Positions 5,123 to 29,084 of a DNA stretch of 33,557 bases are shown one piece after another. Each line of letters starts with the position of its first letter. Within the stretch, counting starts at the first letter, position 1. This DNA is from Marinosulfonomonas sp. Its GTDB lineage: Bacteria; Pseudomonadota; Alphaproteobacteria; Rhodobacterales; Rhodobacteraceae. A program made the translations under genes and the position numbers. The stretch is taken from the NCBI GenBank assembly GCA_030625325.1, contig DAOURA010000009.1, positions 1 through 33,557 of the forward strand, in the 5' to 3' direction. The notes under the pieces were generated by a model. That model saw only the letters and a list, made by a program, of their open reading frames with translations, was not told where the DNA came from and searched no databases.

Positions 5123-5123
5123 T

Positions 5124-7022: not shown

Positions 7023-7032
7023 GGAAATGATA

Positions 7033-10003: not shown

Positions 10004-10539
10004 AACTGATCCTTACCCTATTACTGCCCCTTGCCCTGCTGGCAGGTTGCAAAGAAGACAGCGCTGCGTTGAATGTACCTGATCCGGTGGCCCTGACAGA
10101 AGAGGCCGCCGGTCACTATTGCCAGATGATCATTCTGGAACATCAGGGCCCCAAGGCGCAGGTGCATCTGGCGGGTTACCCCGCGCCGCTGTGGTTTAGT
10201 CAGGTGCGTGACGGGATCGCCTATTTGAAATCACCGGAACAGTCGGCTGAGATACTGGTAATTTATGTGAATGATATGGGCCGCGCCGTCAGTTGGGATG
10301 AACCCGGTGCCGACAACTGGATCAGGGCAAGGGATGCCTTTTTTGTTGTTGGCTCTGACGCCGTTGGCGGCATGGGTGCCCCCGAGATTGCGCCATTTGC
10401 AGACGCTGCAATGGCAGAACAATTTAGCGCAGAGCATGGCGGTGATGTCATGCGTCTGAATGAAATTCCGGCAGAGGTGGTTCTTTCCCCTGTCGATGTA
10501 AACACCGCCCTGGGGGATCAACCTGATGACCACTCGTAG
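10000..10539 (+). CDS. nosL: NosL, copper-chaperone lipoprotein
   Basis: A 179-residue outer-membrane-type lipoprotein that supplies Cu(I) for NosZ assembly. The signal ends in a lipobox LAGC with the lipidated Cys17. The expected copper-binding pair is seen as C41-x-M43 in HYCQMI, with H39 and H47 nearby, followed by the family's GPKAQVHL stretch. The ATG at 10000 overlaps the nosY stop (ATGA); a longer in-frame reading upstream lies wholly inside nosY and is rejected. The last 14 bp overlap nosX. Confidence 0.94.
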   Translation: MKLILTLLLPLALLAGCKEDSAALNVPDPVALTEEAAGHYCQMIILEHQGPKAQVHLAGYPAPLWFSQVRDGIAYLKSPEQSAEILVIYVNDMGRAVSWDEPGADNWIRARDAFFVVGSDAVGGMGAPEIAPFADAAMAEQFSAEHGGDVMRLNEIPAEVVLSPVDVNTALGDQPDDHS

Positions 10540-11443: not shown

Positions 11444-11878
11444 CTAACCCAGTTGTACGACCTGCTCCGCATCTATGACGATTGCCATATCCCAAAACCG
11501 CATCAACTGTTCTTCCAGTTGCCGGTAATCCTGTGGGCTGTCACCGGTCAGGCGTTCAACCCGAAATCCAAAACGTTCAAATCCGCTATCGGGTAGTGTG
11601 GTCAAAATTATAGGGATCACGCCGCGCTCAGATGCAGCGCCTGCCAGACGCAGGGCGGCCTGCGTGCAATCTGCAGGGCGCTTTGTCACCCGCACACCAA
11701 TGTATGACGCAGGGTTTTCACCGCTTTCCCATAGTTTTGCAGACGGTGGGGTTGGGTGGCTGGCAGGTTGTATGTTTTTGATACTGGTCAGCCCCCGATC
11801 AAAAAGTTCCGCGTCCAGATCAAGGGGCTGGGAATGTGAAATCCTTGAAATTACGTTCAGCCATTCGTCAGCATTCAT
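11444..11878 (-). CDS. Conserved-looking protein of unknown function, last gene of a glycosyltransferase operon
   Basis: A 144-residue soluble protein with no signal peptide, membrane helix or motif I recognise. It is a mixed alpha/beta chain with a hydrophobic core segment (GVIPIILTTLPDSG) and a C-terminal amphipathic helix (QLEEQLMRFWDMAIVI). Its ATG overlaps the TGA of the 689-residue glycosyltransferase-like gene (ATGA), and GGGGGTG precedes it, so the two are translationally coupled. It may be an accessory to that enzyme. Function is unknown. Confidence 0.75.
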   Translation of the reverse strand: MNADEWLNVISRISHSQPLDLDAELFDRGLTSIKNIQPASHPTPPSAKLWESGENPASYIGVRVTKRPADCTQAALRLAGAASERGVIPIILTTLPDSGFERFGFRVERLTGDSPQDYRQLEEQLMRFWDMAIVIDAEQVVQLG

Positions 11879-13944: not shown

Positions 13945-13946
13945 GT

Positions 13947-14996
13947 TTAATGGCCGATCTTTTGATCTGAAATTGATTTTAACATTAGCTGGAATTTTTC
14001 AGGCGAAAAGATTTTTAGGACATCCTGTCCTTTTTTTACCTGATCCCGGTATTGGTCTGGATTTGCGACAAACTTTTTGATTATGCTGTCAACGTCACCG
14101 GGCGTTGTGCCTATTACGGCCCCCTGAAAAACGGATGCGGTTTGTGGGTCTGAAATAACAACTTTCCCGGCGGCAATCCCCTCTGCCAGTATCCGCCCAA
14201 AGCTTTCGCGCAATGTCGCGCAGTTGAAATAAACCACAAAATCAATCATTTCGAAAAACTGGTCCACCTCAACCCCGCGAAATGGGATCATGTCCCAGTG
14301 GGTGCGTTTCAGGTTTTCAGTCATAAACAAATCGGCCCCAAGGATTACATTACTTTGCGCATGGGCTGGAAAGCACAGATCCATTTCGGCAAGCGTTGGA
14401 AATTTTTCCATTCCAGGACGGGACAATCGCCCGCGCCGGTCTGCCGGGGTGTTTGTAGGGGGGTGCATCACAAAATCGCAAATATTGAACCAGTCATCGG
14501 CCAGAACTGACCATTTTCCACCGGTTTGGTTGGTGTTGAACCAGTCGCAAATGGTTTCCCGGTTATAGGGGGAAATCGGGGCAATGGATTTACGCAGGGC
14601 CAGTGATGCGTTGTCGATCAGATTCAGGCATTTTGCCACATCAAAGGCCCGCGCTTTGGCCGGGCGTAAGAAGTTTTCATGGGCCACAACGATAAGGTGT
14701 TTTGCGATGATCCTTGTTGAAAGGGTGGTTTCAAATTTCAGAAATGACGGGTTATGAATAAAAACCAAATCAGCACTGATTGTGGGGGCGTCCCAAATCA
14801 GTTCAAGCCCAAGTTCCTGTAAAATATTGCGGATCTGGGGGGCAATTTGTTGCCCCTTGAACATCTGTGAAGAAACCGCGTGAACGCTGGTACGACCAAG
14901 CTGTGCGGCCACCTTTAGTTCGCTGGCAATAGCTGAGGATGTACCGCCCGGAAAACGGGGCTCTATCAGATATGCAATACTTGGCTGGGCTTTCAT
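13947..14996 (-). CDS. GT4-like glycosyltransferase
   Basis: A 349-residue GT-B type enzyme, likely transferring a sugar from a nucleotide donor in surface polysaccharide or protein glycosylation. The N-terminus has the substrate-loop pattern FPGGTSSAIASEL; the C-terminal half carries RESFGRILAEGIAAGKVVIS, the E-x7-E type donor motif of GT4 enzymes, followed by a C-terminal helix bundle. No signal or membrane helix is seen. Its stop is 2 bp from the next gene on the same strand and its start 29 bp after the small secreted protein gene, so all probably share one transcript. Specific substrate not determinable. Confidence 0.82.
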   Translation of the reverse strand: MKAQPSIAYLIEPRFPGGTSSAIASELKVAAQLGRTSVHAVSSQMFKGQQIAPQIRNILQELGLELIWDAPTISADLVFIHNPSFLKFETTLSTRIIAKHLIVVAHENFLRPAKARAFDVAKCLNLIDNASLALRKSIAPISPYNRETICDWFNTNQTGGKWSVLADDWFNICDFVMHPPTNTPADRRGRLSRPGMEKFPTLAEMDLCFPAHAQSNVILGADLFMTENLKRTHWDMIPFRGVEVDQFFEMIDFVVYFNCATLRESFGRILAEGIAAGKVVISDPQTASVFQGAVIGTTPGDVDSIIKKFVANPDQYRDQVKKGQDVLKIFSPEKFQLMLKSISDQKIGH

Positions 14997-15025
14997 CGCC
15001 TGAACATTTTTAATGTGTGGTCATA

Positions 15026-15328
15026 TCAGTAGATGGGCGTCGGATCAGTTGGCAATGTTCCAAAAGGCCCGTCTGGCACAGGAAGGCATTCGATTATTCC
15101 GCCTTCCACCCCATCGGCAAAGGACCTAAGTTCCCGGGCAAGGGGGTCAGATCCTTGCATGATTCCCGGGTTCTCATTCAGATAAGCCAACAGTGCACCG
15201 CAGTCCCTGGACAGGATCAATTGTTCAATGATCTGCAACTGCGCCAGATTGAAAGCAGCATGTGCGCCATGCGAGCCAGCCAAAAACATTAGTGCTGTAA
15301 TGATAGCGGTTAGCCTTGAACCAGGCAT
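15026..15328 (-). CDS. Small secreted protein of unknown function
   Basis: A 100-residue protein with a clear Sec signal peptide: basic start (PGSR), hydrophobic core, and cleavage after AHA near residue 24. The mature part is about 76 residues with two cysteines (C43, C81) that could form a disulfide, and a Pro/Thr-rich tail. No family recognised. Its start codon follows a run of eight G on the coding strand that forms part of the ribosome site region. Gene order suggests it is co-transcribed with the glycosyltransferases. Confidence 0.7.
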   Translation of the reverse strand: MPGSRLTAIITALMFLAGSHGAHAAFNLAQLQIIEQLILSRDCGALLAYLNENPGIMQGSDPLARELRSFADGVEGGIIECLPVPDGPFGTLPTDPTPIY

Positions 15329-15333
15329 AATAT

Positions 15334-15341
15334 CCCCCCCC
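15334..15341 (-). repeat. G8 tract in the ribosome-binding region of the small secreted protein gene
   Basis: Eight C on the plus strand, so eight G on the coding strand, 5 nt before the ATG at 15328. It serves as or extends the Shine-Dalgarno element (CAGGGGGGGGATATT). Slippage here would change the spacing between ribosome site and start. Confidence 0.6.
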
Positions 15342-15469
15342 TGAACGACATCGGTACCCTTAAGAAAAACAGGCCCGACCAGTTAACACCACCAGATGCC
15401 CCCATATCAAGACCGAACGTGCAGATACATCTTGCACGGGCCTTAATGAAACGCGTCAAATTTTCCATC

Positions 15470-17470
15470 CTACAAATGGTCCCCCCGCTTTAGGCTTTTC
15501 AATAACCTGTTTCGCAGTTTTGTTAGTTCCGACGTGCCCTGCCCGGATCGTCGGGTTGACCTTGCAACCTGTCCAGACCCGGCGTTGCCCTTTAACCAGA
15601 CCTCAATGTATCCAACCGGTGGTCTGGGCGAATAATCAGTGAAATCGCGTGCGGGTCCCTCGATCGCATCGGCCAGCTTTTGGGCGGCCTCTGCATCTTG
15701 TGCGTGATAAAACCGTATGTGGCTTTTACTAACCCTGAAACCAACCCGCTTTGGTGATCTGACCGGGTAACCGGTTTCTTCCAGCACCAAAGAAAAGGCT
15801 TTCAGGCTTTCCTCTGACAGGCTGGGTGGGGCCTGAACACGCACAACATATCTAGCTGCGTCACTTGGGCCGCCGTTTTCTTTGGCTTGCTGTTCTTGGG
15901 CTTTAATAGGTTCGGGCGGAACGGCCGATATTTCGGGCAACATGCCAAAAGATGCAGGCCCTATCGGATCAAGCAAAGCCATCCGGCGTGTGTTTTCAAA
16001 GGTGCCCGGGATACCCGAACTTGAAAACCCATCGGTATCTGGTGCAGAAAATGGAATGGCCGTGGCCGTGGCTGGCGTGACATGCGATGGCCAGTCTTTT
16101 CCTTCTTTTCTAGCCAGTGTGTCAAACGAGTTTGGCGTTGCCAGAAAACCCAGGGTATCCCGCTGAAAATGAAGATCGGAAGAATTCAGCGACACAGTCA
16201 GTTTGCCCGGTGGTGCATCCGCTTGCGGTGCCCCAAAGGGGGTTGGTCTGGCGATGGGTATTGCGTTCAACGCAGCAGGGGCGTGAAAGCCACTTATTTC
16301 CAACGGTAATGAAGCAAAGGCAACCGGGACAACCCGCTCAAACACAAAGGCGGTGCGTGTTAACGGGCCATCGGATAAAGCGTAGTTCCCAATAATAGCA
16401 GGTGATGATGGCAGTGGGTCGACGGTAAGTAGCATTGCGATTTCTGATTTGTCTGAAACTGCCTTGCGGGCAATGATTGTTGGCTGCCATGGTGCCGGTG
16501 CCGTTTTGATGCTTTCATCAACAGGCCCTGGGGTTTTCAGGCTGTATTTTAAAACTGGCGGTGGGGATTTGACCGGCCCTGTTGATATTTCGCTGTGTAA
16601 TTGTGGCGGGTCCAAATTTATCAGGGCAATCTGATCTGGCTCTGCCAGTGTGAATGGCACAGATAAAGCCGCGGTCAGGGGGTATACGGTTGGCTGGTGC
16701 GACATTTCTAAAGGGCCGCGCAGGGCTGGGGCCGCCGCAAATTCAGGGGGGGCGGTGATGTCAGGCGAACTGGACAGGCGCGGTGCTTCGGGGTTGCCCA
16801 TATCCAGAAGCGGACCAGAGACATCGCTGGAAACAGGTGAATTTTTGATGCCTGACACTGTGGCGCCTTCAAGCACCGCAACCGCGTCCGACGGAAGTTT
16901 TACCGTGCCCTTCAGGCCACCATTATAGAGGTTGGATAACACGAACCCCAAACCAAGGGCCCCGGCCAACATCGCGGCAAAGGCCAGGGGGGCAAAGCGG
17001 CGCTTTTGCTTACTTTCGCTTGCCTGTGTGATTGGGGCCGGGATTACTGTGGCGGCGGGTGCTTTTTTCCGATCATTTTTTTCGTCTTCAGTCAGGGCAG
17101 AACGAATGACCTTTTTATACAAATCCGGGATCAGAACTGTTCTTGCGTTCTTTTTTGATGGGTTTGATTTTTGCCGCTCTGCCAGAGCACGTTTTCTATA
17201 GGCCTCAGCCTTGGCCATGCGGTCCACCCAGTTTCCGCTGGACAGGTCTTTATCACGACCCACATTTTTTGTGGTTTTAAGCGGGTGTTTGTTTTTCTGG
17301 GGTGGCTTGGGTTCACCACGCGCGGCGCGCTGGGACAGGGCCTGCTCGCGCAAAATTCTGGCTTTTGCCATGCGGTCGGCCCAGTTGCCTGAACTAAGCA
17401 TGTCATCCACGCTTGGAAGGTCTTCCTCCGGTTTAGCCGGGGGGGCGGTATTACTAAGCTTTTTGTTCAT
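15470..17470 (-). CDS. Large single-span membrane protein with duplicated N-terminal motif
   Basis: A 666-residue protein of unknown function. The cytoplasmic N-terminus (1-158, highly basic) has two copies of a 21-residue motif, at 25-45 and 76-96, sharing LSSGNW-x-DRMAKA. One transmembrane helix lies at about 159-181. The long outer region (182-540) is rich in Pro, Ala and Ser and looks poorly structured. A compact C-terminal domain (about 545-640) contains YVVRVQAP, IRFYHAQDAEAAQKLADAI and GYIEVWLKG, and resembles a LytR_C or SPOR-like wall-binding fold, though this is only an impression. The topology is that of a cell-envelope spanning protein. Start at 17470 is preceded by AAGG and a G8 run. 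Confidence 0.75.
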   Translation of the reverse strand: MNKKLSNTAPPAKPEEDLPSVDDMLSSGNWADRMAKARILREQALSQRAARGEPKPPQKNKHPLKTTKNVGRDKDLSSGNWVDRMAKAEAYRKRALAERQKSNPSKKNARTVLIPDLYKKVIRSALTEDEKNDRKKAPAATVIPAPITQASESKQKRRFAPLAFAAMLAGALGLGFVLSNLYNGGLKGTVKLPSDAVAVLEGATVSGIKNSPVSSDVSGPLLDMGNPEAPRLSSSPDITAPPEFAAAPALRGPLEMSHQPTVYPLTAALSVPFTLAEPDQIALINLDPPQLHSEISTGPVKSPPPVLKYSLKTPGPVDESIKTAPAPWQPTIIARKAVSDKSEIAMLLTVDPLPSSPAIIGNYALSDGPLTRTAFVFERVVPVAFASLPLEISGFHAPAALNAIPIARPTPFGAPQADAPPGKLTVSLNSSDLHFQRDTLGFLATPNSFDTLARKEGKDWPSHVTPATATAIPFSAPDTDGFSSSGIPGTFENTRRMALLDPIGPASFGMLPEISAVPPEPIKAQEQQAKENGGPSDAARYVVRVQAPPSLSEESLKAFSLVLEETGYPVRSPKRVGFRVSKSHIRFYHAQDAEAAQKLADAIEGPARDFTDYSPRPPVGYIEVWLKGNAGSGQVARSTRRSGQGTSELTKLRNRLLKSLKRGDHL
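17183..17245 (-). repeat. Second copy of the LSSGNW-x-DRMAKA coding repeat
   Basis: Encodes residues 76-96 of the large membrane protein. It shares 14 identical positions of 21 with the first copy, 51 residues away. Both DNA and protein similarity are visible, so it is a true internal duplication. Confidence 0.8.
17336..17398 (-). repeat. First copy of the LSSGNW-x-DRMAKA coding repeat
   Basis: Encodes residues 25-45 of the large membrane protein. The core S-G-N-W-x-D-R-M-A-K-A is followed by a basic helical stretch ending R-x-x-A-L in both copies. Confidence 0.8.
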
Positions 17471-17635: not shown

Positions 17636-18511
17636 TCAGGTGTGGTTTGTACCGTGATCGCGCGCCAATGCCATGAACATCCTGATCATGCGCACGTCTT
17701 TTCGCTGGTTCACGCAGACAATAGTTTCTTCCATCGGGATTGTCGGGCCTTCGATGGTTATCTTTATCAGTCTTTCATCGTGGCCATATTCTGCGTCCGA
17801 AACAAAGCCAATGCCCCCACCCGCGGCAACAATTTCGCGAACTGCTTCGCGCCCTTCGGCCTCAATTGCAGGGCGCAGCGTGATGCCCTGTTCTTTGGCC
17901 GCACCTTCCAGTTTTTGGCGGGTTTTTGACCCCTTTTCGCGAAAAACCAAGGGAAATTTTTCCAGCGTTGCCAGGGACGCCGAAGGTTCGGGCAATCCGG
18001 GAAACCGTTTTGCAGCAAATGCGATAATTGGTGTCGCGCCAAGGGATACGCTTTGGTATTTGTCGAATTTAACCTTGCTGCCTAAAACACCGATGTCCGC
18101 ATCATACGCGGCCAGTGCCTGTTCAACGTCCTGCGAATTGCCGGTGCGCAGGGTTAGGTGCACGTTCGGGTAACGGGTGCGAAACCGGCTTAGAACCCCC
18201 GTCACGTGATAGGCAGAATCCGCAATGACCCGCAGGGTGCCCGACGTCAGGGCGCGCGTTTCGGTCAGGTATTCAAGTGCGCGCGCCTCTACTTCGAACA
18301 TCGGACGGGTGATTTCGAGTAATTCCTGACCGTGTTTCGTAAGGGTGATTTGCTTTTTGCGACGATTGAACAGCAAAATATCATAACCCTGTTCAAGCCC
18401 CAGAACCTGATCGGATACCGCCGGTTGGGTCAGGCCCATTGCCTCGGCTGCGCGCGAAAACCCGCCGTGGATGGCAACATTGTGAAAGGCGCGAAGCTGA
18501 ACATATTTCAT
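17636..18511 (-). CDS. LysR-family regulator, likely controlling phnWX
   Basis: A transcription factor of about 291 residues. The N-terminal winged helix-turn-helix is plain (LRAFHNVAIHGGFSRAAEAM, then TQPAVSDQV at about 27-35), followed by the linker helix and a periplasmic-binding-protein-like effector domain with the typical GIGFVSDAEYG region. I place the start at 18511 (MKYVQLRAF); an ATG at 18517 would add two residues, but a TATAAT element at 18520-18525 lies too close for it to be well inside the transcript. It is divergent from phnW with about 110 bp between, the classic LysR layout. 2-AEP or a breakdown product is the probable effector, by position only. Confidence 0.92.
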   Translation of the reverse strand: MKYVQLRAFHNVAIHGGFSRAAEAMGLTQPAVSDQVLGLEQGYDILLFNRRKKQITLTKHGQELLEITRPMFEVEARALEYLTETRALTSGTLRVIADSAYHVTGVLSRFRTRYPNVHLTLRTGNSQDVEQALAAYDADIGVLGSKVKFDKYQSVSLGATPIIAFAAKRFPGLPEPSASLATLEKFPLVFREKGSKTRQKLEGAAKEQGITLRPAIEAEGREAVREIVAAGGGIGFVSDAEYGHDERLIKITIEGPTIPMEETIVCVNQRKDVRMIRMFMALARDHGTNHT

Positions 18512-18519
18512 AGCCATGC

Positions 18520-18525
18520 ATTATA
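18520..18525 (-). promoter_or_regulatory. -10 element (TATAAT) abutting the LysR gene
   Basis: A perfect TATAAT on the minus strand lies 8 nt before the preferred ATG at 18511. Transcription would begin at about 18513, so the mRNA may be leaderless. No ribosome site is visible, which agrees. No good -35 hexamer is seen. Confidence 0.45.
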
Positions 18526-18538
18526 TCGAAAAAATCGA
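18526..18538. promoter_or_regulatory. LysR-type T-N11-A operator candidate
   Basis: TCGA-AAAAA-TCGA is a 13-nt dyad with the T-N11-A form of LysR boxes, within a larger imperfect inverted repeat (TTA...TAA, 18521-18544). It sits directly upstream of the LysR -10, in position for autoregulation. Confidence 0.5.
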
Positions 18539-18558
18539 TGATAAGATATCTAATAACG

Positions 18559-18576
18559 ATTTTACATATGTAAAAT
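18559..18576. promoter_or_regulatory. 18-bp perfect palindrome in the LysR-phnW intergenic region
   Basis: ATTTTACATATGTAAAAT is identical to its reverse complement. It lies about 48 bp upstream of phnW. A dimeric regulator site is likely; it may be a second LysR site or a site for another factor. Confidence 0.55.
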
Positions 18577-18597
18577 TTGTGGGCTACTCAGCCACAA
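18577..18597 (+). other. Possible leader hairpin before phnW
   Basis: TTGTGGGCT and AGCCACAA can pair as an eight-base-pair stem with one bulged G and an ACTC tetraloop, ending 26 nt before the phnW ATG. If transcribed it could stabilise the leader. There is no T-run, so it is not a terminator. Confidence 0.35.
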
Positions 18598-18623
18598 GCA
18601 CAACAGCAGACAGGAAATACCTG

Positions 18624-19811
18624 ATGTCGCAAGATGCCAATAAGATCGCCCTGCCACATATGGGGGAACCTTACCTGCTTACCCCCGGCCCGCTGACCAC
18701 ATCTTATGGCGTCAAACAGGCGATGCTGCGTGACTGGGGCAGTTGGGATGATGAATTTCGCGCCGTGACGTCCGAGGTTCGAAAATTACTACTGGAACTG
18801 ACCGGCGACACAGACGGTGTGCTGGACTGTGTTCCGATGCAGGGCAGTGGGACGTTTTCGGTTGAGGCATTGCTGGGGTCTTTCGTTCCGCGAAACGGTA
18901 AGGTTCTGGTGCTGTCCAACGGGGCCTATGGGGCGCGCGCGGTTGAGACATTGGAATACCTTGGGCGGGATCATGTTGTGATCGACAAGGGTGATTACAT
19001 GCCGCCCCGTGGCGATGAAGTCACGGCGGCGCTGATTGCGGACCCTGACATCACCCATGTGGTTGTGGTGCATTGTGAAACCAGTTCCGGTATCCTGAAC
19101 CCGGTGGCCGAAATTTCTGAAGCTGTCTACGCACAGGGTCGCAAACTGTTGATTGACAGCATGAGTGCCTTTGGCGCGATCCCGCTGAACATCAATGAAA
19201 TCCGATATGATGCGATGGTGTCGTCCGCCAACAAATGCATCGAAGGCGTGCCGGGCTTTGGGTTTATCATTGCCCGCAAGGATGAATTACAGGCCGCCAA
19301 GGGGCGCAGCCATTCGTTGTCTTTGGATGTTCATGCCCAGTGGGCGCATATGAACAAAACCGGCCAGTGGCGCTTTACCCCGCCGACACATGTGGTCGTT
19401 GCGTTTCTTGAGGCATTGCGCGCCCATAAGGCCGAGGGCGGCGTTGCCGGGCGTGGGGCGCGGTATGCCAACAACCGTGACGTGATGGTTGCGGGAATGC
19501 GCGAACTTGGCTTTGAAACCCTGCTAAAGGACCGCTGGTTGTCGTCGATTATCGTGACGTTCTTTTGCCCCGCCCACCCGGCGTTTGAATTTGAACGTTT
19601 CTATGGGCTGATGAAGACCAAGGGCTTTATCATCTATCCCGGTAAGTTGACCGTGGCGGATAGTTTTCGCATTGGCTGTATTGGTCAGATGGACGGTGAT
19701 GTGATGCGTGCGGTTGTCACCGCCGCCGGTGAAACCCTGAACGAAATGGGGGTGGATAGTGCCACCCCACCTGAATTTGCATTGAAAGAACGGGCCAAAC
19801 TGGCCGCATGA
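18624..19811 (+). CDS. phnW: 2-aminoethylphosphonate--pyruvate transaminase
   Basis: A 395-residue PLP enzyme (class V fold) converting 2-aminoethylphosphonate and pyruvate to phosphonoacetaldehyde and alanine. The N-terminus LLTPGPLTTS is diagnostic of the family. D178 (LLIDSMSAFGA) holds the PLP ring nitrogen, and K204 in SSANKCIEGVPG is the Schiff-base lysine. Start at 18624 follows AGGA with 8 nt spacing; a longer in-frame reading to 18516 would run across the intergenic operators and is rejected. phnX follows 37 bp downstream with a near-identical ribosome-site sequence. Confidence 0.96.
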   Translation: MSQDANKIALPHMGEPYLLTPGPLTTSYGVKQAMLRDWGSWDDEFRAVTSEVRKLLLELTGDTDGVLDCVPMQGSGTFSVEALLGSFVPRNGKVLVLSNGAYGARAVETLEYLGRDHVVIDKGDYMPPRGDEVTAALIADPDITHVVVVHCETSSGILNPVAEISEAVYAQGRKLLIDSMSAFGAIPLNINEIRYDAMVSSANKCIEGVPGFGFIIARKDELQAAKGRSHSLSLDVHAQWAHMNKTGQWRFTPPTHVVVAFLEALRAHKAEGGVAGRGARYANNRDVMVAGMRELGFETLLKDRWLSSIIVTFFCPAHPAFEFERFYGLMKTKGFIIYPGKLTVADSFRIGCIGQMDGDVMRAVVTAAGETLNEMGVDSATPPEFALKERAKLAA

Positions 19812-19848: not shown

Positions 19849-20697
19849 ATGGCTGGACCATCAGAATACACCTTCGCCCGTACCTATCGCGGCAAAATCA
19901 AAGCTGCTGTTTTGGATTGGAGCGGCACACTGGCCGATGCCTATGTTATCGCGCCTGCTGTGGTGTTCGTCGAGGTTTTCAAAAACCAAGGCGTAGAAAT
20001 TTCCATGGAAGAGGCCCGTGGCCCAATGGGGCTGCGCAAAGATATCCATATTCAGAAACTAACGCAGGACCCGGTTATTGCCGCCCGTTGGGAGGCCATT
20101 AAGGGTACGCCCCCGGTACAGGCGGATGTTGATGCGATGTTTGCCGATTTCGTGCCTGCGCAGTTGGAGTGCCTGCCAAAATACACCGCGTTGCTGCCCG
20201 GCATCAAAGACGTGGTGAATGGCCTGCAGGCCGAGGGGATCAAGATCGGTGTTTCCACCGGCTTTACCCGTGTGATGGTTGATGTGTTGCTGAACGACGT
20301 GATTGCCCAAGGCGTGGTGCCTGATGCGACTGTGGCGGGTGACGAAGTACTTAACGGTGCGCGTCCATCGCCGCACATGGTGTTCAAGAACCTTGATCTG
20401 ATGGGCATTGATGACGTGAAGTCGGTGGTTAAATGTGACGACACGGTTTCCGGTATTGGCGAAGCCATGAACGCCGGTTGCTGGGGCGTTGGTTTGGTGC
20501 GCTATTCCAACTACATGAATATCAACACACTGGAAGAAGAGGCGACCCTGTCCGAGGCTGACATCGCCGCCCGCATGGCAAAAACACGCAATATTCTGGA
20601 GCAGGCCGGCGCGCATTACGTGATCGATAGTCTGATTGAATTGCCAGCGGTGATTGAAGATATCAACGCCCGTTTGGCGCGTGGCGAAAAACCCTGA
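19849..20697 (+). CDS. phnX: Phosphonoacetaldehyde hydrolase (phosphonatase)
   Basis: A 282-residue HAD-superfamily enzyme splitting the C-P bond of phosphonoacetaldehyde to acetaldehyde and phosphate. The nucleophile is D23 in VLDWSGT. The Schiff-base lysine special to phosphonatases is K64 in MGLRKDIH. The later HAD motif CDDTVSGIGEAMNAGCWGVG binds Mg. Length is normal. The ribosome site AAAGGAAA precedes the ATG. With phnW it forms a complete two-step route from 2-AEP to acetaldehyde and phosphate. A strong terminator follows. Confidence 0.96.
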   Translation: MAGPSEYTFARTYRGKIKAAVLDWSGTLADAYVIAPAVVFVEVFKNQGVEISMEEARGPMGLRKDIHIQKLTQDPVIAARWEAIKGTPPVQADVDAMFADFVPAQLECLPKYTALLPGIKDVVNGLQAEGIKIGVSTGFTRVMVDVLLNDVIAQGVVPDATVAGDEVLNGARPSPHMVFKNLDLMGIDDVKSVVKCDDTVSGIGEAMNAGCWGVGLVRYSNYMNINTLEEEATLSEADIAARMAKTRNILEQAGAHYVIDSLIELPAVIEDINARLARGEKP

Positions 20698-21099: not shown

Positions 21100-23139
21100 A
21101 TGAAAAGCCTACTATTTTCAGGGGTGGCGCTTGTCGCATTAACGGGGGGTGCCTTTGCTGGTTGTACTGGCATCACTGTTGCCGACATGGGTGGTGTTGC
21201 CGCGGGTAAATACCCGCAGCAATTTGAGCTGTCTACATATGAGGCCAACGCTGGCTGTAAAATGACCTTCCAGGGCAACCCGGATGCAGCCGCATTAAGT
21301 GCGCGTATCCGTGGAAACGGCGCAATCGGTGATGTTACTGATCGTTTGCCATCCGAGCCACTGGTCGTTGTGCCCTATGACGCCATCGGGTCATATGGCG
21401 GCACGATGGACGTTCTGTCCAACGCAACCGAGGCGGGTACATCCGACTTTTTGTCGGTACGTCACGTAAACCTGGTACGCATGTCGGACGATCTGAAAAC
21501 TATCGTGCCAAACGTTGCAAAAGACTGGGCATGGAATGACGACTTTACCCAACTGACATTCTTCCTGCGTAAAGGTCATAAGTGGTCAGATGGCACACCG
21601 TTTACATCTGCAGATGTAAAATACTGGTATGATAACCTGGCGCTAAATTCAAACGTCATTGAAAAGCCTAAAGATTATGTTCTGGTGTCGGGCGAGCGGA
21701 TGACTGTGGAAACACCAGACGCGCAGACGGTTGTGTTTAAACTGCCTGCTCCAAAACCAGGCCTGTTGGCGCACTTTGCTACTTCGTTTGCGCAGGGTTT
21801 CCAGCCGATGCATTTCCTAAGCAAGTGGGACCCGGAACTGAGCCCAACCGCCGACGCTGATGCGCAGGCCGCAGGGTTTGAAAATGGGTATGCTGTACTG
21901 TCCGCATATTTTGGCAACTCTGACTGGACCGATACGCCGTCACCTTTGTTGAATAGCCCGGACAAAGTGGCCAGCCTGCCCGCAGATGTTGTGCCGACAC
22001 TGGAATCGCACATCTATATCAGCGACACAACAGAGGGGCGCCATCTGGTTGCGAACCCTTATTTTCACCAGGTGGATACAGCCGGTAATCAGCTGCCATA
22101 TATCAGTGAGCAGGACGAAATCTACGTTAACGAAAACGAAGTACGTATCCTGAAACTGGTAAACTCTGAAGTCGATTACAAAAAGCAATCACTGCAGTTG
22201 GCGTCTGCACCGCTGCTGTTAGAGAACCAGGAAAAGGGCGGTTACACTGTCGATCTCAGACCTGAAATCACAATGTCGACCTTTGCGTTTAACGTAACAT
22301 CCGAGGATTTGGAGAAACGTAAGGTATTTGGTGATGTAAGGTTCCGCCAGGCTATGTCGGTGGCGCTTAATCGCGACGAGATTAACGAAGTCGGATTCTT
22401 TGGCCTGGGTGAACCCAAGCAGTACATCGGGTTCTCACCTGCGCCTGCCTTTATTGATCCGAAATGGGTAACTCATTTTGCGCAGTTTGATCCAGCTCTG
22501 GCGAACTCATTGCTAGACGAAGTTGGCATGGCTGACGTGGATGGTGATGGTTTCCGTGAATTGCCAAATGGTGAAAAAATCGTACTGAACCTTCAGTTTT
22601 CTACGCAGGGTGTTGCGGGACAGGTTGTCGAACTTGTCGGGCAACATTGGGCAGATGTTGGTGTTCAGACCACGGTAAAAGAGATCACACCAGATGAGTA
22701 TCGTTCGGCCCAATCCGCCAACAAGCTTGATGTCATGGTATGGCGTAAGGGTCAGCCATTGGAAATCATGCTTGGTAACAACGAACTTTGGGTGCCACCG
22801 TTCAATGATTATTTCAATGTTCGCACTGGGATGCTTTGGGCGGAATGGATTGATACAAATGGTGCGAGTGGCGTTGAACCTCCGCAGTACGTGAAAGACA
22901 TGATTGGCGATATTAATGTGTTCCAATCTGCGCTTGCAGGTACACCGGAATCTGATGCAGCTGGTCAGCGTTTGGTTGAAAACATGGTGTCCAATGTTCT
23001 GTTTATCGGGACAGTTCAGGCACCGGCGCCGATCTACCATAGCAATGCGCTGAAGAACTTTACTGAGTTCAAGACGCACTCGTATGAGTATTACCGGACC
23101 TATCCGTACCGGGCTACCCAATGGTTCCTGGACGAATAG
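21100..23139 (+). CDS. Family-5 (Opp/Dpp-type) substrate-binding protein, unusually long
   Basis: A 679-residue periplasmic solute receptor. A signal peptide (MKSLLFSGVALVALTGGAFA) is followed by Gly-Cys22. A second Cys at 53 suggests an N-terminal disulfide, or Cys22 could be lipidated with a poor lipobox. The family-5 signature appears as TQLTFFLRKGHKWSDGTPFT with the following SADV, and VRFRQAMSVALNRDEIN. Usual members are about 500-600 residues; the extra length includes some 60 residues before the first domain. Ligand unknown. Position next to phnWX and a PMH-like gene suggests a phosphonate conjugate. A strong stem-loop follows the stop, which commonly keeps binding-protein mRNA more abundant than that of the permeases. 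Confidence 0.9.
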   Translation: MKSLLFSGVALVALTGGAFAGCTGITVADMGGVAAGKYPQQFELSTYEANAGCKMTFQGNPDAAALSARIRGNGAIGDVTDRLPSEPLVVVPYDAIGSYGGTMDVLSNATEAGTSDFLSVRHVNLVRMSDDLKTIVPNVAKDWAWNDDFTQLTFFLRKGHKWSDGTPFTSADVKYWYDNLALNSNVIEKPKDYVLVSGERMTVETPDAQTVVFKLPAPKPGLLAHFATSFAQGFQPMHFLSKWDPELSPTADADAQAAGFENGYAVLSAYFGNSDWTDTPSPLLNSPDKVASLPADVVPTLESHIYISDTTEGRHLVANPYFHQVDTAGNQLPYISEQDEIYVNENEVRILKLVNSEVDYKKQSLQLASAPLLLENQEKGGYTVDLRPEITMSTFAFNVTSEDLEKRKVFGDVRFRQAMSVALNRDEINEVGFFGLGEPKQYIGFSPAPAFIDPKWVTHFAQFDPALANSLLDEVGMADVDGDGFRELPNGEKIVLNLQFSTQGVAGQVVELVGQHWADVGVQTTVKEITPDEYRSAQSANKLDVMVWRKGQPLEIMLGNNELWVPPFNDYFNVRTGMLWAEWIDTNGASGVEPPQYVKDMIGDINVFQSALAGTPESDAAGQRLVENMVSNVLFIGTVQAPAPIYHSNALKNFTEFKTHSYEYYRTYPYRATQWFLDE

Positions 23140-23166
23140 TCCAGCGGTATCGATCACTTGAGATTG

Positions 23167-23194
23167 CTACGGGCGGCCCTTGGGCCGCCCGTAG
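23167..23194 (+). other. Intra-operon stem-loop after the binding-protein gene
   Basis: CTACGGGCGGCCC and GGGCCGCCCGTAG form a perfect 13-bp inverted repeat separated by TT. No T-run follows, so full termination is unlikely. It probably blocks 3' exonuclease decay or attenuates, favouring the binding protein over the downstream permeases. Confidence 0.75.
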
Positions 23195-23254
23195 CCACAA
23201 GCCAAAAATGCCGATTAAAAAATAGGCACAGGGTTTTCAGGGGGCAACCATCCA

Positions 23255-24259
23255 ATGGTTCAATTCTTGCGATTTGCTGCGATTCGAGCATTGTTGGCGG
23301 TTTTTACCCTGATAATGGTTTCGTTCATTGTTTTTTCACTGATGGAACTGGTTCCCGGTGACTGCGCTGAACGATATCTGGCCTTTAAAAACACCCAGGG
23401 GTCGGGCATTTCCATTGCCGATATTGAAGCTGAAAGAATTCGCCTTGGGCTGGATAAACCCTATATCCAACGCTGGGGCGTTTGGATTTTCAACGCATTC
23501 CAGGGGGAGTTTGGCGATAGCTGTATCCTGCGTGTCAATATCAGCCAGCTGCTGGGCCAGAAATTCTGGCTAAGCCTGGGCATATGCCTGACGTCACTTT
23601 TGGTCGCCTACGCGATCGCAATTCCGGTTGGCATCATTTCAGCAACTTCAAACAATGCCACGCTGAACAACAGCCTGCGTCTGGTTAGCTATCTTGGTCT
23701 GGCGATGCCAAACTTTTTGCTGGCGCTGATGATCATGCTATTTTCCACTGTGTTCTTTGGCGACAGTCTGACGGGCCTGTTTTCTAAGGAATTCCGCGAT
23801 GCCGCCTGGTCCTATGAGCGGGTAAAAGATTTTCTGTCACGGGCGTGGTTGCCGGTGTTCATTCTGGGCTGGTCAGCAACGGCGTTTGCCATTCAAACGG
23901 TGCGCGCCCTGATGTCTGATGAAATTGGCAAGCTTTACGTGACGGCGGCCGCCGCGCGTGGCGTGGCCGGGCGACGGTTGTTGTGGCGGTATCCGGCGCG
24001 ACACGCACTGGGGCCGATCATCAATTCGCTTGGCTTTGATTTGAACCGGATTTTCAATGAATTACCGATTGTGGCATTGATCCTGACCCTGACTGAGGCC
24101 GGGTCGCTGCTGCTTGGGGCGCTTGCGCGATCAAATGATCAGCAGCTTGCCGGTGCGATCATCTTCATGTTGACCGCCAGTATTGTGGGGCTGAACTTTA
24201 TCACTGATATCGTGCTTGCCCTGACTGATCCGCGCGTTCGCCGCAGTATAGTGGGATAA
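23255..24259 (+). CDS. DppB/OppB-type ABC permease
   Basis: A 334-residue inner-membrane subunit. The N-terminus RFAAIRALLAVFTLIMVSFI with VPGD is typical of DppB, followed by a periplasmic segment with the family pattern RLGLDKPYIQRWGVWI and GEFGDS. Five further helices and the EAA-like loop (AAARGVAGRRLLWRYPARHA) near residues 230-250 follow. It pairs with the DppC-type protein to form the channel. Start ATG at 23255 after AGGGGG. The next gene begins 5 bp after its stop. Confidence 0.93.
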   Translation: MVQFLRFAAIRALLAVFTLIMVSFIVFSLMELVPGDCAERYLAFKNTQGSGISIADIEAERIRLGLDKPYIQRWGVWIFNAFQGEFGDSCILRVNISQLLGQKFWLSLGICLTSLLVAYAIAIPVGIISATSNNATLNNSLRLVSYLGLAMPNFLLALMIMLFSTVFFGDSLTGLFSKEFRDAAWSYERVKDFLSRAWLPVFILGWSATAFAIQTVRALMSDEIGKLYVTAAAARGVAGRRLLWRYPARHALGPIINSLGFDLNRIFNELPIVALILTLTEAGSLLLGALARSNDQQLAGAIIFMLTASIVGLNFITDIVLALTDPRVRRSIVG

Positions 24260-24264
24260 GCGAT

Positions 24265-25404
24265 ATGACAGATACAGCAACAAATGCCGACGTCGATCGC
24301 AACCTGAAAGAGGCCTATTTTACCGCCGGTCAGGGGCAATTGATCTGGGCCAGATTCAAGAAACAAAAGGCCGCAATGGTTGGGGTCATTGTTCTTGTGG
24401 TTTTGATCTTGTCCGGGCTTTTCGCCCCGTTTCTGACGCCATATGACCCAACGATTGCCGGGCGCGATGCGGATTACCAAAACGGCGCACCACAGATCCC
24501 AAAATTCTGGGATGAAAATGGATTTTCCGCGCGCCCCTTTATTTATACGGCCAGCCGTGAACGCTCTATTAAAACCAATTTCCGATGGGTTACCACGATT
24601 GACCGCGAAGCGCGCCGATATGTTGTGTTTTTCCCCAAGGGGGATGAATACACGCTATTTGGCATTCCTGCCAGCAGGCACCTGTTTGGTGCAGATGTGG
24701 GAAAGGTCCACCTTTTTGGCACTGATAACGGCGGTAAGGATATTTACTCGCGAACGTTCCATGCGATTAATACATCCCTTGCGGTCGGAACAATCGGTGT
24801 TCTTATTGCCTTTGTACTGGCCCTGATTATTGGCGGGGTTGCCGGATATTATGGGGGGTGGATTGATTCAATCCTGCAGATGATCACTGATGCGGTGCGA
24901 ACGATACCGGCGATCCCCCTGTTCATGGCGTTATCTGCATTTATCCCCCCGGAATGGAGCGCCGAAAGCAGGTTTTTGTTCATATCGATGATCCTTGGGT
25001 TTATCGGATGGCCGACGCTGGCCCGGCGGGTACGGACCCACCTGTTAACCGAGAGAAATCAGGAATATGTGCTGGCGGCCGAACTATGTGGTGCGTCTGC
25101 CAGCCACGTTATTCGAAAACACCTGCTGCCCAGTTTCACCAGCTATATCATCGTCGATCTGGTGATTTCATTTCCTTATATGGTGCTGTCCGAAACGGCG
25201 CTTAGCTTTATCGGGCTGGGCCTGAAAGACCCGGTAAATTCCCTTGGTGTTATGTTGCAAAGTGTAACCTCGGCGGATGTTTTGCTGAATTACCAATGGT
25301 ATTTTATCCCGGTGATTTTCTTCATAACCCTTGTGCTTGCATTTGTGTTTGTCGGTGACGGGCTGCGCGATGCGGCCGATCCTTATGGGGAAATCAAAAA
25401 ATGA
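24265..25404 (+). CDS. DppC/OppC-type ABC permease with enlarged periplasmic loop
   Basis: A 379-residue membrane subunit, long for a family whose members are usually about 300. The first helix is at about 38-58; the loop before the second helix (about 171) spans roughly 105 residues instead of about 55-60, with charged and aromatic content (FWDENGFSARPF, RYVVFFPKGDEYTLF). Downstream are the family's FGTDNGGKDIYSR and the EAA loop (ELCGASASHVIRKHLLPS). The enlarged loop may contact the oversized binding protein. Its stop overlaps the start of the ATPase gene (ATGA). Confidence 0.92.
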   Translation: MTDTATNADVDRNLKEAYFTAGQGQLIWARFKKQKAAMVGVIVLVVLILSGLFAPFLTPYDPTIAGRDADYQNGAPQIPKFWDENGFSARPFIYTASRERSIKTNFRWVTTIDREARRYVVFFPKGDEYTLFGIPASRHLFGADVGKVHLFGTDNGGKDIYSRTFHAINTSLAVGTIGVLIAFVLALIIGGVAGYYGGWIDSILQMITDAVRTIPAIPLFMALSAFIPPEWSAESRFLFISMILGFIGWPTLARRVRTHLLTERNQEYVLAAELCGASASHVIRKHLLPSFTSYIIVDLVISFPYMVLSETALSFIGLGLKDPVNSLGVMLQSVTSADVLLNYQWYFIPVIFFITLVLAFVFVGDGLRDAADPYGEIKK

Positions 25405-26402
25405 CGCGCCTGATTGATGTTGAAAACCTGACCCTGAAATTTGATACTGATGAGGGGCGCATAACTGCGGTGGATGATGTGTCATTTTCCCTGCAGGCAG
25501 GCGAAGTTCTGGGGCTGGTTGGTGAAAGTGGCTCAGGCAAATCGGTTACGGCCAAATCCCTGATGAAGCTGAACGCTAATAATGCGATCTACAGCGACGA
25601 TACCAAGGTTACGCTGCACCTGGAATCCGGGCCAGTGGATATCATGTCCCTGAGAACCAGCAAGGAATTGCAGGTGGTTCGCGGCGGTGCAATTTCGATG
25701 ATCTTTCAGGAACCAATGGCCAGCTTTGCCCCGGCAATTTCCATTGGTGACCAGATGGTCGAACAGTTGATGATCCACACCGATATGACGGCCAAGCGCG
25801 CCAAAGAGGTGTCAATTGAAATGCTGGCGCGGGTTGGTATTTCGGATGCGGCGACGCGGTTTAAACAGTTTGCGTTTGAATTGTCGGGTGGGATGCGTCA
25901 GCGCGCGATGATCGCGATGGCCCTGTCCACCAAGCCAAAACTGCTGATTGCTGATGAACCGACAACCGCGCTGGATGTTACCATTCAGGCGCAGGTTATT
26001 GATCTGATGAAGGATCTGGTGGATGATTTTGGCATGGGGATTATTTTCATCACCCATGATCTGGGTGTGATCGCCCAGACTGCCGATAATGTTGCCGTGA
26101 TGTACCTTGGGCGGTTGGTTGAACAGGGGCCGGTTCGCGATGTTCTGCGTAACCCGTCGCACCCGTATACACGGGGCTTGCTGGATGCTCTGCCCGATCT
26201 GGATGATCTGGACACGCCGCTTCGCCCTATCCCCGGTGATATTCCTTCACCCCTTGAACGCCCACCCGGATGCGTTTTCAACACACGTTGCAATGATGCG
26301 ATTGCGGGCCGGTGCAATGTTGATATTCCGCAGTTCATTCAGATTAATGAAAACCACCGGGCCGCATGCCACCTGCACGCACCGGCAGGAGACACGAAAT
26401 GA
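25401..26402 (+). CDS. DppD/OppD-type ATP-binding protein
   Basis: A 333-residue ATPase of the importer. Walker A GESGSGKS is at 41-48, signature LSGGM at 161-165, and Walker B LLIADEP at 181-187, with ITHDLGV downstream. The C-terminal oligopeptide-transporter extension holds four conserved cysteines in GCVFNTRC, RC and ACH, which bind an iron-sulfur cluster in some DppD proteins. GGGGAAA precedes the ATG by 7 nt. It overlaps both neighbours by 4 bp. Confidence 0.95.
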   Translation: MTRLIDVENLTLKFDTDEGRITAVDDVSFSLQAGEVLGLVGESGSGKSVTAKSLMKLNANNAIYSDDTKVTLHLESGPVDIMSLRTSKELQVVRGGAISMIFQEPMASFAPAISIGDQMVEQLMIHTDMTAKRAKEVSIEMLARVGISDAATRFKQFAFELSGGMRQRAMIAMALSTKPKLLIADEPTTALDVTIQAQVIDLMKDLVDDFGMGIIFITHDLGVIAQTADNVAVMYLGRLVEQGPVRDVLRNPSHPYTRGLLDALPDLDDLDTPLRPIPGDIPSPLERPPGCVFNTRCNDAIAGRCNVDIPQFIQINENHRAACHLHAPAGDTK

Positions 26403-27412
26403 GTGATAAGCCGTTAATCTCTACCCGCGACCTTTCAGTTCACTTCCCACTGCGTGGTGGTGGCATATTTGGGCCAAAACCCGTTGTGCGTGCCGTTGAG
26501 GGCGTCGATATCGATATCGATAAGGGGAATTTCTTTGGCCTTGTTGGTGAATCGGGCTCTGGCAAAACCACTCTTGGGCGGGCCATGCTGCGGGCCGCAC
26601 CAATTACCCGTGGTGACATTGTTTATGACGACGGAGAGGTCAGTTATGACCTTCCAAGCCTTGGCGACAAGGAACTGAAAGAGTATCGCAAGCGCGCGCA
26701 GTTGATATTTCAGGATCCTTACGCAGCCCTTAGCCCGCGCATGACTGTGCGCGATATTATAGCTGAGCCGCTTGAAGTCATGGGCCTGACGAAATCAAAA
26801 GGCGAAACTGACGAACGGGTTCGTGAAATTGCCGCCAAGTGCCGCCTTAACCTGGAACACCTGCGCCGTTTTCCCCATGCGTTTTCCGGTGGTCAGCGCC
26901 AGCGTATTTCAATTGCGCGTGCCTTGGTTTCGCGTCCGCAATTTGTTGTGGCCGATGAAAGTGTGGCGGCCCTTGACGTGTCTATTCAGGCGGATGTTTT
27001 GAACCTGCTAAAGGAAATTCAGCAGGAAATGGGCCTGACGTTTCTGTTTATCAGTCACGACCTTAGTGTCGTGGCCCATGTGTGTGACCATGTTGCGGTT
27101 ATGTATCTGGGGCGGCTGGTTGAATCGGCACCAACCCGTGAACTGTTTGCGGCACCGCGCCACCCCTATACCAAGGCGCTGTTGTCAGCCATTCCGTCCC
27201 TTGACCCGGATGACCGGGGCAAGGCGCAAAAACTGGAAGGCGAAATTCCGTCGCCAACCAACCCGCCGCCGGGCTGTAAGTTTCAGACGCGCTGTCCACA
27301 TGCGATTGATATCTGTCGCAAGGATGAACCCAAATTACAGCAATCAGGCAAAGAACATGCCGTTGCCTGCCATCGCTGGCAGGAACTGGCCGAGAATGGA
27401 ATGTCCGCCTGA
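26399..27412 (+). CDS. DppF/OppF-type ATP-binding protein
   Basis: The second, 337-residue ATPase. Walker A GESGSGKT is at 50-57, FSGGQRQR at 162-169, and VVADES at about 183-188. The residue after the catalytic Glu is Ser instead of the usual Pro; activity should be unaffected. The C-terminal extension has the paired cysteines GCKFQTRC and ACHRW. Start at 26399 is set by AGGAG 7 nt upstream and the ATGA overlap; an in-frame ATG at 26366 lies inside the previous gene. It is the last gene of the operon, 6 bp from the convergent hydrolase. Confidence 0.95.
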   Translation: MSDKPLISTRDLSVHFPLRGGGIFGPKPVVRAVEGVDIDIDKGNFFGLVGESGSGKTTLGRAMLRAAPITRGDIVYDDGEVSYDLPSLGDKELKEYRKRAQLIFQDPYAALSPRMTVRDIIAEPLEVMGLTKSKGETDERVREIAAKCRLNLEHLRRFPHAFSGGQRQRISIARALVSRPQFVVADESVAALDVSIQADVLNLLKEIQQEMGLTFLFISHDLSVVAHVCDHVAVMYLGRLVESAPTRELFAAPRHPYTKALLSAIPSLDPDDRGKAQKLEGEIPSPTNPPPGCKFQTRCPHAIDICRKDEPKLQQSGKEHAVACHRWQELAENGMSA

Positions 27413-27418
27413 CCCCTG

Positions 27419-28963
27419 TTAGTCGCCCAAATAGCCGACACTGCCCTGCGGGGTGTTTTTGCACCCGGTCAGGGTTTGATCGGCGTGTTTCATTCGGTGG
27501 CTAAGCAGTTTTTGCGCCATGCGCAGCAAAGTGGCCGTATGTTTCGGATCATCGGCGATATTGCGCATTTCATCCGGGTCATTTTCCAGATCAAACAGCA
27601 ACGGGGCCAGCCCGCCGTTGAAATGCGCCAGTTTGAAACGGTCTTCGCGCAGGATAGCCAGATTGCATTCTTCGCGGCTTAGGCCAGTGGCATGTTGGGC
27701 GGGGGTGATACAATCCGGTTCGGCGAAGTTCAGTTCAAGGTGAACGCAGTCTTTCCAGCCCGCAGGCGTAAGCCCCTGCAAAAATGGTTTTAGCGATTTC
27801 CCATCCATTCCCGGTGGGACCGGCCGGCCGATCAGATCAAGGATTGTCGGGGTGATGTCAATGGTTTCACTAAAGGCATTGACGGTGGTGCCATGTTGGC
27901 CCGGATTGGCCGGGTCACGGATGATCAGGGGGATGCGGTAAGCGGGGTCATAGATATGTTGCTTGCCCCACAGGTGGTGATCGCCCAGCATTTCCCCATG
28001 ATCGGCCTTTAGCACGATAAGGGTGTCGTCGTATTGACCAGTTTCTTTCAGGAATTCGATGATCCGGCCAACATGATGGTCAACCTCAGTGGCCAAGCCC
28101 AGATAAAGCGCGCGCAATTGTTGAACATCGTCATCATTGCGGCTGTTTACCTGCCCGTCACAGCCGCGCACGGTGCTTTCCATTGGTGTGGCGCTGGCAG
28201 CACCGGCAATAAACGGGTGAACGGCGGCTTCTTGTTCGGGGGTGCCCATGCGGGCAGGCATGGGCAGATCGTCCGGGTCATACATCCGGTTATAGGGCGC
28301 GGGGGCCACCAGTGGTGGGTGGGGGCGCAGATAAGTCACCGTTGCGAACCAGTCCTGATCCGTGTGAACCGACAGATGGTTGATCACAGCGTTGGTCAAA
28401 AAGGCGGTGTCGCTGTCTTCGGCCCGGTAAAAGGGTGGGTCACTGGGGCGTGCGGGGCGGTTTGGGTCGGGCGAAATCGCGTCATAGAAATGCGAATAAT
28501 CAGGGATGTCGTATCCCTTGGCCTTTAGGTCCGCGCGCCACGGATAGCTTTCCATATAGCGCATTTCCAGAACCTCTCGAAAACCCGGCAGGACTTCTTC
28601 TTCGGTTTTCAGGGCGGGGTCATTGGGGTGATGCCTGCGCGGGTCACGGGACGTATCGGTATAACCGAACAGCTTTGGCTCATACCCGGATTTGCGCATT
28701 TCGCGGGCTATGTTTGGCAGGTCATGGGCCATTGGTGTCGCGTTGCGGGTTGAACGGTGGTTCATTGCGTATAGCCCGGTGAAGATACTTGCGCGCGACG
28801 GGCCACAGGGGTTGGTGACCGAAAAATGTTTACTGAAGGTCACGGCGTCCCCTTGCAGGGCCCGGATGTTGGGCAGATCAACATGGTCAGCCAGGGCGCC
28901 GGTAATGCAGTCGGCCCGCAGTTGGTCGGCGATGATGAACAGGACTTTGCGACGTTTGGACAA
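27419..28963 (-). CDS. Phosphonate monoester hydrolase-like (formylglycine) enzyme
   Basis: A 514-residue alkaline-phosphatase-superfamily hydrolase closest, from memory, to the rhizobial and Burkholderia PMH/PehA group. It shares the N-terminus, the GLYAMNHR region and the C-terminal HADQTLT tail. Expected active-site residues are all present: D13 and Q14, C53 in CGPSR (to be oxidised to formylglycine), N74, Y101, T104, H215 (RPHPPL), D321, H322 and K334. There is no signal peptide, so it acts in the cytoplasm. The start codon is TTG at 28963, supported by GGGGA 7 nt upstream and by matching the family's N-terminus. Arylsulfatase or phosphodiesterase activity is the main alternative; the family is promiscuous. 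Confidence 0.85.
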   Translation of the reverse strand: MSKRRKVLFIIADQLRADCITGALADHVDLPNIRALQGDAVTFSKHFSVTNPCGPSRASIFTGLYAMNHRSTRNATPMAHDLPNIAREMRKSGYEPKLFGYTDTSRDPRRHHPNDPALKTEEEVLPGFREVLEMRYMESYPWRADLKAKGYDIPDYSHFYDAISPDPNRPARPSDPPFYRAEDSDTAFLTNAVINHLSVHTDQDWFATVTYLRPHPPLVAPAPYNRMYDPDDLPMPARMGTPEQEAAVHPFIAGAASATPMESTVRGCDGQVNSRNDDDVQQLRALYLGLATEVDHHVGRIIEFLKETGQYDDTLIVLKADHGEMLGDHHLWGKQHIYDPAYRIPLIIRDPANPGQHGTTVNAFSETIDITPTILDLIGRPVPPGMDGKSLKPFLQGLTPAGWKDCVHLELNFAEPDCITPAQHATGLSREECNLAILREDRFKLAHFNGGLAPLLFDLENDPDEMRNIADDPKHTATLLRMAQKLLSHRMKHADQTLTGCKNTPQGSVGYLGD

Positions 28964-29005
28964 GGCGTTTCCCCGCAGTTGGCAGATGCATGGCTAAAGC
29001 AGATA

Positions 29006-29034
29006 GGGCGACAGGATCATATTGCCTGCCGCCC
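29006..29034 (-). terminator. Stem-loop between maeB and the PMH-like gene
   Basis: GGGCGGCAGG and CCTGTCGCCC on the minus strand form a 10-bp stem with one G-T pair and a 9-nt loop, about 50 bp after the maeB stop. There is no strong T-run, so termination may be partial or Rho-assisted. Confidence 0.45.
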
Positions 29035-29084
29035 TTTCAATCGGGAAAACGTCATACCGATGTCGGTTTTGGGCTTTGCGTCAA

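Follow-up and report, generated by a model that had tools for sequence, protein, structure and literature searches.

A D-type phosphonate monoester hydrolase gene associated with an Opp-type transporter and 2-aminoethylphosphonate catabolism genes in Rhodobacteraceae

The window analysed here, a stretch of 33,557 nucleotides from Marinosulfonomonas sp. (contig DAOURA010000009.1), carries a predicted D-type phosphonate monoester hydrolase (D-PMH) gene, which is associated across the family Rhodobacteraceae with one particular Opp/Dpp-type ABC transporter and with genes of 2-aminoethylphosphonate (AEP) catabolism. PMHs are well-known promiscuous enzymes that have been assayed mostly on synthetic aryl esters, and to our knowledge their natural substrate is still unsettled. 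The genomic context suggests that their natural job may be the freeing of AEP from larger imported molecules, and we consider it fairly probable that a cytoplasmic D-PMH catalyses the first enzymatic step of a pathway for the use of AEP esters.

The PMH gene occupies positions 27419–28963 on the minus strand and encodes 514 amino acids, its 514 codons being uninterrupted by internal stops. The ORF and its TTG start had already been proposed in the first-pass annotation; the ORF was confirmed and its strand was added, while the TTG at 28963 is well supported as start codon, since the nearest in-frame upstream stop (TAG) is located 33 nt away with no alternative start in the gap, a putative Shine–Dalgarno sequence (GGGGA, 28970–28974, minus strand), read directly, lies 6 nt upstream of it, and homologues start at exactly the same position with ATG (the same-genus locus L002 and L042) or GTG (L041). 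The ORF is a real gene and more than a chance reading frame. Comparison with the same-genus homologue gave a dN of 0.24 and a dS of about 2.1, which is near saturation, and the best PDB match of the protein was 4UPK (phmmer E = 9e-175). A strong hairpin with an 11-bp stem was found on the minus strand at 29005–29035, between the malic-enzyme gene and the PMH gene; this region folds better than its shuffles (z −2.4) and a long T run is absent.

The protein contains the Pfam Sulfatase domain (PF00884) and the CxPxR signature in the alkaline-phosphatase/sulfatase fold, features that would also suit a misnamed arylsulfatase or alkylsulfatase. All active-site residues listed in the first-pass annotation were recovered (D13, Q14, C53-G-P-S-R57, N74, Y101, T104, H215, D321, H322, and K334). 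The metal-site residues D13-Q14 (28922–28927, minus strand) and the active-site residue H215 (28319–28321, minus strand) are invariant in alignment A1, and the formylglycine (sulfatase) signature C53-G-P-S-R57 (28793–28807, minus strand), including C53 as the would-be nucleophile, is kept in every homologue of the tree whose contig spans that site. The segment from the metal ligands D321-H322 to K334 (27962–28003, minus strand) includes the clade-specific M325 and W332. Tyr105 and Thr107 of RlPMH separate PMHs from the sister arylsulfatases, of which SpAS1 has Lys and His, and position 107 is Asp in most PMHs (PMC5488252). In the alignment with 2VQR, 4UPK, and the arylsulfatase outgroup, the equivalent residues proved to be Y101 and D103 of the Y101-T102-D103 segment (28655–28663, minus strand), that is, the PMH-diagnostic Tyr and Asp rather than the Lys and His of SpAS1 positions 101 and 103. 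T104, which had been taken for one of the diagnostic residues, is present but lies one residue off the equivalent of RlPMH Thr107; it was dropped in favour of D103, as relatives carry I, S, V, C, M or A in its place but conserve Y101 and D103.

In a 71-row tree with a sulfatase (AS) outgroup, the window PMH was placed inside a 41-row clade together with SpPMH of Silicibacter/Ruegeria pomeroyi (4UPK) at an SH-aLRT of 100, the outgroup was split off at 100, and the T-PMH clade of RlPMH and BcPMH was separate from the 41-row clade. An AlphaFold model built from 16 sequences (mean pLDDT 89.6) could be superposed on 4UPK with a VIA-align Z of 53.9 and an rmsd of 1.9 Å over 502 residues; its five closest structures were all PMHs (Z 52–54), whereas the sister arylsulfatases SpAS1 and SpAS2 gave a Z of about 44. 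Considering the diagnostic residues, the tree, and the fold, the assignment to the sulfatases is extremely improbable and was rejected. The reading of the first-pass annotation, a PMH and not a sulfatase, was thus upheld by the alignment with characterised PMHs that it had called for, and the placement in a sulfatase clade with sulfate-specific residues, which it had named as contrary evidence, was not observed. Membership in the T-PMH/PehA group was ruled out by the NCBIfam PehA score (NF045661, 507 bits against a cut-off of 900) and by D103 in place of Thr. Since the predicted fold matches PMHs, the protein groups with SpPMH, the Y101/D103 pair is present, and the PehA score stays below the cut-off, the sequence and the model support its assignment as a D-type PMH, a further member of a known family.

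Of the characterised enzymes, SpPMH shares with the window protein 54% identity over the full length, the same active-site set, and the Asp at the 103/107 position. RlPMH and BcPMH (2VQR and 2W8S), which are T-PMHs, have the same fold (Z 52–53), formylglycine signature, metal site, and Tyr at 101/105, but they show only 37–39% identity to the window PMH and carry Thr at 103/107. The 'new' arylsulfatases SpAS1 and SpAS2 (4UPI and 4UPL) represent a sister family with the same fold and Cys nucleophile, but they differ by the Lys/His pair in place of Tyr/Asp, by an identity of 27–28%, and by a Z of 44. Some positions are conserved only in the 41-row clade, which is the AEP-linked one: E130 (28574–28576, minus strand) occurs in 100% of its rows and is rare elsewhere, where mostly Pro, Ser or Val is found, and R135 (95%) and W332 (100%), the latter two residues before the catalytic K334, behave similarly. 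It is a speculation drawn from this pattern that E130, R135, and W332 might bind the aminoethyl group, E130 being a candidate ammonium-binding residue.

The neighbourhood of the PMH gene begins with a LysR regulator gene of the AEP-catabolism type (17636–18517, minus strand; TIGR03339, 302 bits, below the cut-off of 341), followed on the plus strand by phnW for 2-AEP:pyruvate transaminase (18516–19811; NF010006, 558 bits, cut-off 296) and phnX for phosphonoacetaldehyde hydrolase (19849–20697; TIGR01422, 282 bits, cut-off 220). The listed phnW ORF begins inside the lysR start region and most homologues align only from about residue 31–45; translation therefore probably begins at an internal ATG (MSQDANK...), about 30–45 codons into the ORF. 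As both PhnW and PhnX are present and exceed the curated cut-offs, the window encodes the AEP phosphonatase pathway; in contrast to the described pathway, its partners are a PMH and an Opp/Dpp-type transporter, and not AepXVW, AepP or AepSTU. The five transporter genes follow on the plus strand and code for a family-5 solute-binding protein of 679 aa, the binding protein of the PMH-linked transporter (SBP5, 21100–23139), the Opp/Dpp-type permease B (23255–24259), permease C (24265–25404), ATPase D (25401–26402), and ATPase F (26366–27412), the last of which converges with the PMH gene, their ends being 6 bp apart. The PMH gene had been described as sitting beside the 2-AEP genes; these genes do exist, but the distance is 7.6 kb for phnW and 6.7 kb for phnX, and the transporter genes separate them from the PMH gene. 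Elsewhere in the window, translations indicated a nitrous-oxide-reductase-like cluster at 2885–11425 (nosR, nosZ, nosD, nosF, nosY, and the following genes), and the minus strand of 11444–17470 contains four ORFs of 144, 689, 349, and 666 aa, of which three had no Pfam match and one had a weak glycosyltransferase-28 C-terminal match.

To examine the association of these genes, 198 genomes of the family were used, each from a separate genus except for one pair; kinship was handled in the statistics only through this sampling. PMH was found in 39 genomes, SBP5 in 36, and phnW in 40 (in the table used). PMH was accompanied by SBP5 in 30 of the 39 PMH genomes (odds ratio 85, Fisher p 1e-21) and by phnW likewise in 30 (odds ratio 50, p 4e-19), and 27 of the 198 genomes contained all three. 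The genes are also physically linked: 25/40 PMH genes are situated within 10 kb of SBP5 or phnW, compared with 1/109 paralogous sulfatases (p 6e-17), and this single sulfatase shares its stretch with a PMH. SBP5 lies within 25 kb of phnW for 18 of the 31 SBP5 genes in PMH genomes and for none of the six elsewhere. Both SBP5 and phnW are absent from six PMH genomes, and PMH is missing from six SBP5 genomes; some of the genomes in these two groups are fragmented. The hint of the first-pass annotation that the AEP neighbours matter was thereby borne out statistically.

As the AlphaFold model of SBP5 was poor (pLDDT 65), this protein was compared by sequence profile. Over its full length it was closest, among proteins of solved structure, to SPH1118, a pectin-oligosaccharide-binding protein (E 1.5e-85; PMC9314435), and it matched other saccharide- and peptide-binding proteins more weakly. 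The location of phnWX directly upstream of the transporter, the lack of a clear other AEP transporter in the window, and two genomes that have SBP5 and phnW with no PMH match would be in line with the import of free AEP or other phosphonates, in which case the PMH would provide a side activity such as alkyl-ester removal or detoxification of phosphonate antibiotics. However, the described AEP transporters are AepXVW, AepP, and AepSTU, and an oligopeptide- or dipeptide-type system is not mentioned among them (PMC8316502). Together with the resemblance of SBP5 to oligosaccharide-binding proteins and a PMH–SBP5 co-occurrence stronger than expected of a dispensable part, this makes such a reading decidedly improbable.

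A survey of 80 named loci from GTDB genomes showed that the same transporter (mostly 63–86% identity) adjoins PMH in about 21 and that phosphonate-catabolism genes are near PMH in 14. At least four gene orders were found: the convergent order of the window (L041–L043, L045–L047, and L063), PMH first (L053, L062, L064, L066, L067, L070, L073, L089, and L096), PMH last (L048, L065, L068, and L071), and phnW-phnX-PMH in a row (L115, L120, G046, and G020), with phnX-to-PMH gaps of 34 bp in G046 and 51 bp in G020. Five loci have PhnA and PhnY in place of PhnX; PbfA is found there too, in some cases along with TmpA. A phosphonate-type LysR also occurs among the PMH neighbours. The PMH–AEP linkage was detected in both halves of the 41-row clade, which, with the differing gene orders, argues against a single inherited arrangement. 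In the Ruegeria close relatives of SpPMH (L059) the PMH gene has moved away from the phnW/SBP5 cluster; consequently, these relatives lack the surroundings that hint at a substrate. The convergent arrangement was also seen, with an SBP5 of 74% identity, on a contig labelled 'Osedax' symbiont bacterium (L063), perhaps as a result of horizontal transfer. Members of the T-PMH clade (Roseomonas, Brucella, Martelella, and others) have their own, different Opp-type binding protein (SBPbru) and transporter next to PMH at 17 loci, so PMHs appear to be paired with importers of two kinds.

An alternative is that the enzyme serves the scavenging of organic P in general, chiefly as a phosphodiesterase acting on, for example, glycerophosphodiesters or sugar phosphodiesters brought in by the transporter, with the AEP genes adjacent as fellow P-acquisition genes. 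Characterised PMHs hydrolyse both phosphonate monoesters and phosphodiesters (PMC5649143, PMC5488252), the agrocinopine precedent is a phosphodiester (PMC4526662), and Phaeobacter-type loci contain Na/Pi symporter and DeoR genes with phnW not nearby. Against this, the partners that recur belong specifically to C-P catabolism (PhnW, PhnX, PhnA, PhnY, PbfA, and TmpA) and SBP5 was seen near phnW only in PMH genomes, so we regard a chiefly phosphodiesterase role as rather unlikely. The Na/Pi symporter gene recurs near PMH at 12 loci, often accompanied by genes for a DeoR/GlpR-like regulator and for an EamA protein similar to TIGR03340 (phosphonate-utilisation-associated membrane protein), and it may perhaps export surplus phosphate.

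In the AEP-ester utilisation pathway that we favour, the periplasmic SBP5 and the ABC transporter encoded at 21100–27412 would import a small organic ester of AEP, possibly a sugar, oligosaccharide or glycerol that carries AEP and originates from phosphonoglycans or phosphonolipids. Such esters are expected in nature since AEP occurs in cell-surface glycans and lipids (PMC6697681). No signal peptide was seen by inspection on the N-terminus of the PMH (MSKRRKVLFIIADQ), from which we infer a cytoplasmic location. There the enzyme, with Cys53 matured to formylglycine and a metal on D13/Q14/D321/H322, would attack the phosphorus and release the alcohol and free AEP; PhnW would then transaminate AEP to phosphonoacetaldehyde, and PhnX (PhnY and PhnA in relatives) would break the C-P bond to yield phosphate. 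The PMH gene of the window is convergent with the phnWX/transporter strand and stands outside it, which was counted against this pathway. A comparable division of labour is known from the Acc agrocinopine system of Agrobacterium, where AccA of a peptide-type ABC transporter imports sugar phosphodiesters and the phosphodiesterase AccF cuts them (PMC4526662), but its hydrolase is a different one that does not belong to the PMH family, and its substrate is a phosphate diester, not a phosphonate ester.

The catalysis outlined above presupposes a matured Cys53. The first-pass annotation had noted that no gene for a formylglycine-generating enzyme (FGE) is in the window, and the genome-wide search for a maturation enzyme that it proposed extended this absence. 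PF03781 gave no match at E 1e-3 in the window and in its own genome (a MAG of 91% completeness) and no match at 1e-15 in 24 other PMH genomes of the family; five of these, including four with a completeness of 99% or more, likewise gave no match at 1e-3. Altogether, 25 of the 39 PMH-bearing genomes had no recognised FGE, and FGE was not enriched with PMH (14/39 PMH genomes against 76/159 others, p 0.21). No anaerobic sulfatase-maturating enzyme (anSME) exceeded the cut-off in 15 PMH genomes. A radical-SAM match of the own genome (at C47) was rejected as anSME with 44.8 bits against a cut-off of 349; by inspection, this ORF has a different C-terminal extension and adjoins an oxidoreductase-like ORF.

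One interpretation of these searches, which is independent of the substrate question, is that the PMH works in vivo with an unmodified Cys53, as multiple turnovers by an unmodified choline sulfatase and a residual activity of unmodified BcPMH have been described (PMC6189696). The same paper, however, quotes gains of 5- to 2500-fold for the formylglycine forms and refers to a third, unidentified maturation system of E. coli. In addition, the CGPSR motif is retained, as expected if a maturase recognises it; we therefore give an unmodified enzyme only a small chance. FGE genes near PMH in three loci (L088, L097, and L099) make it probable that some relatives follow the canonical route. As to the family in general, a sulfatase-family homologue (E 1e-20) was found in 164 of the 198 genomes and PF03781 (1e-15) in 90 only, that is, many genomes have sulfatase-like genes with no recognisable FGE. 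In its widest form, the proposal that the D-PMHs of marine alphaproteobacteria chiefly strip AEP from imported phosphonoglycan or phosphonolipid fragments via a dedicated Opp-type importer, most of them acquiring formylglycine by a yet-unidentified maturation system, is a tentative one that we hold to be possible but not probable.

The open literature covered, which included a 2023 review on the degradation of phosphonates and the paper on AEP transporters, yielded no account of a D-PMH paired with AEP catabolism and a specific Opp-type importer, and searches for glycerophosphonoethanolamine or for AEP with an oligopeptide transporter returned nothing relevant. For marine DOM, the action of a PMH on phosphonate esters has been proposed before (PMC5649143); that proposal concerns a different genus and does not involve the present cluster. 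An import-and-deesterify front end thus appears undescribed in the literature searched, subscription papers being outside the search. The linkage names a concrete substrate class, so the transporter, the hydrolase, and the downstream pathway can be tested together, and the 25 of 39 PMH genomes with no recognised FGE make up a defined set for seeking another maturation system. If the pathway is true, it would give marine bacteria an added route to recover phosphorus from glycan- or lipid-bound AEP, and not from free AEP.
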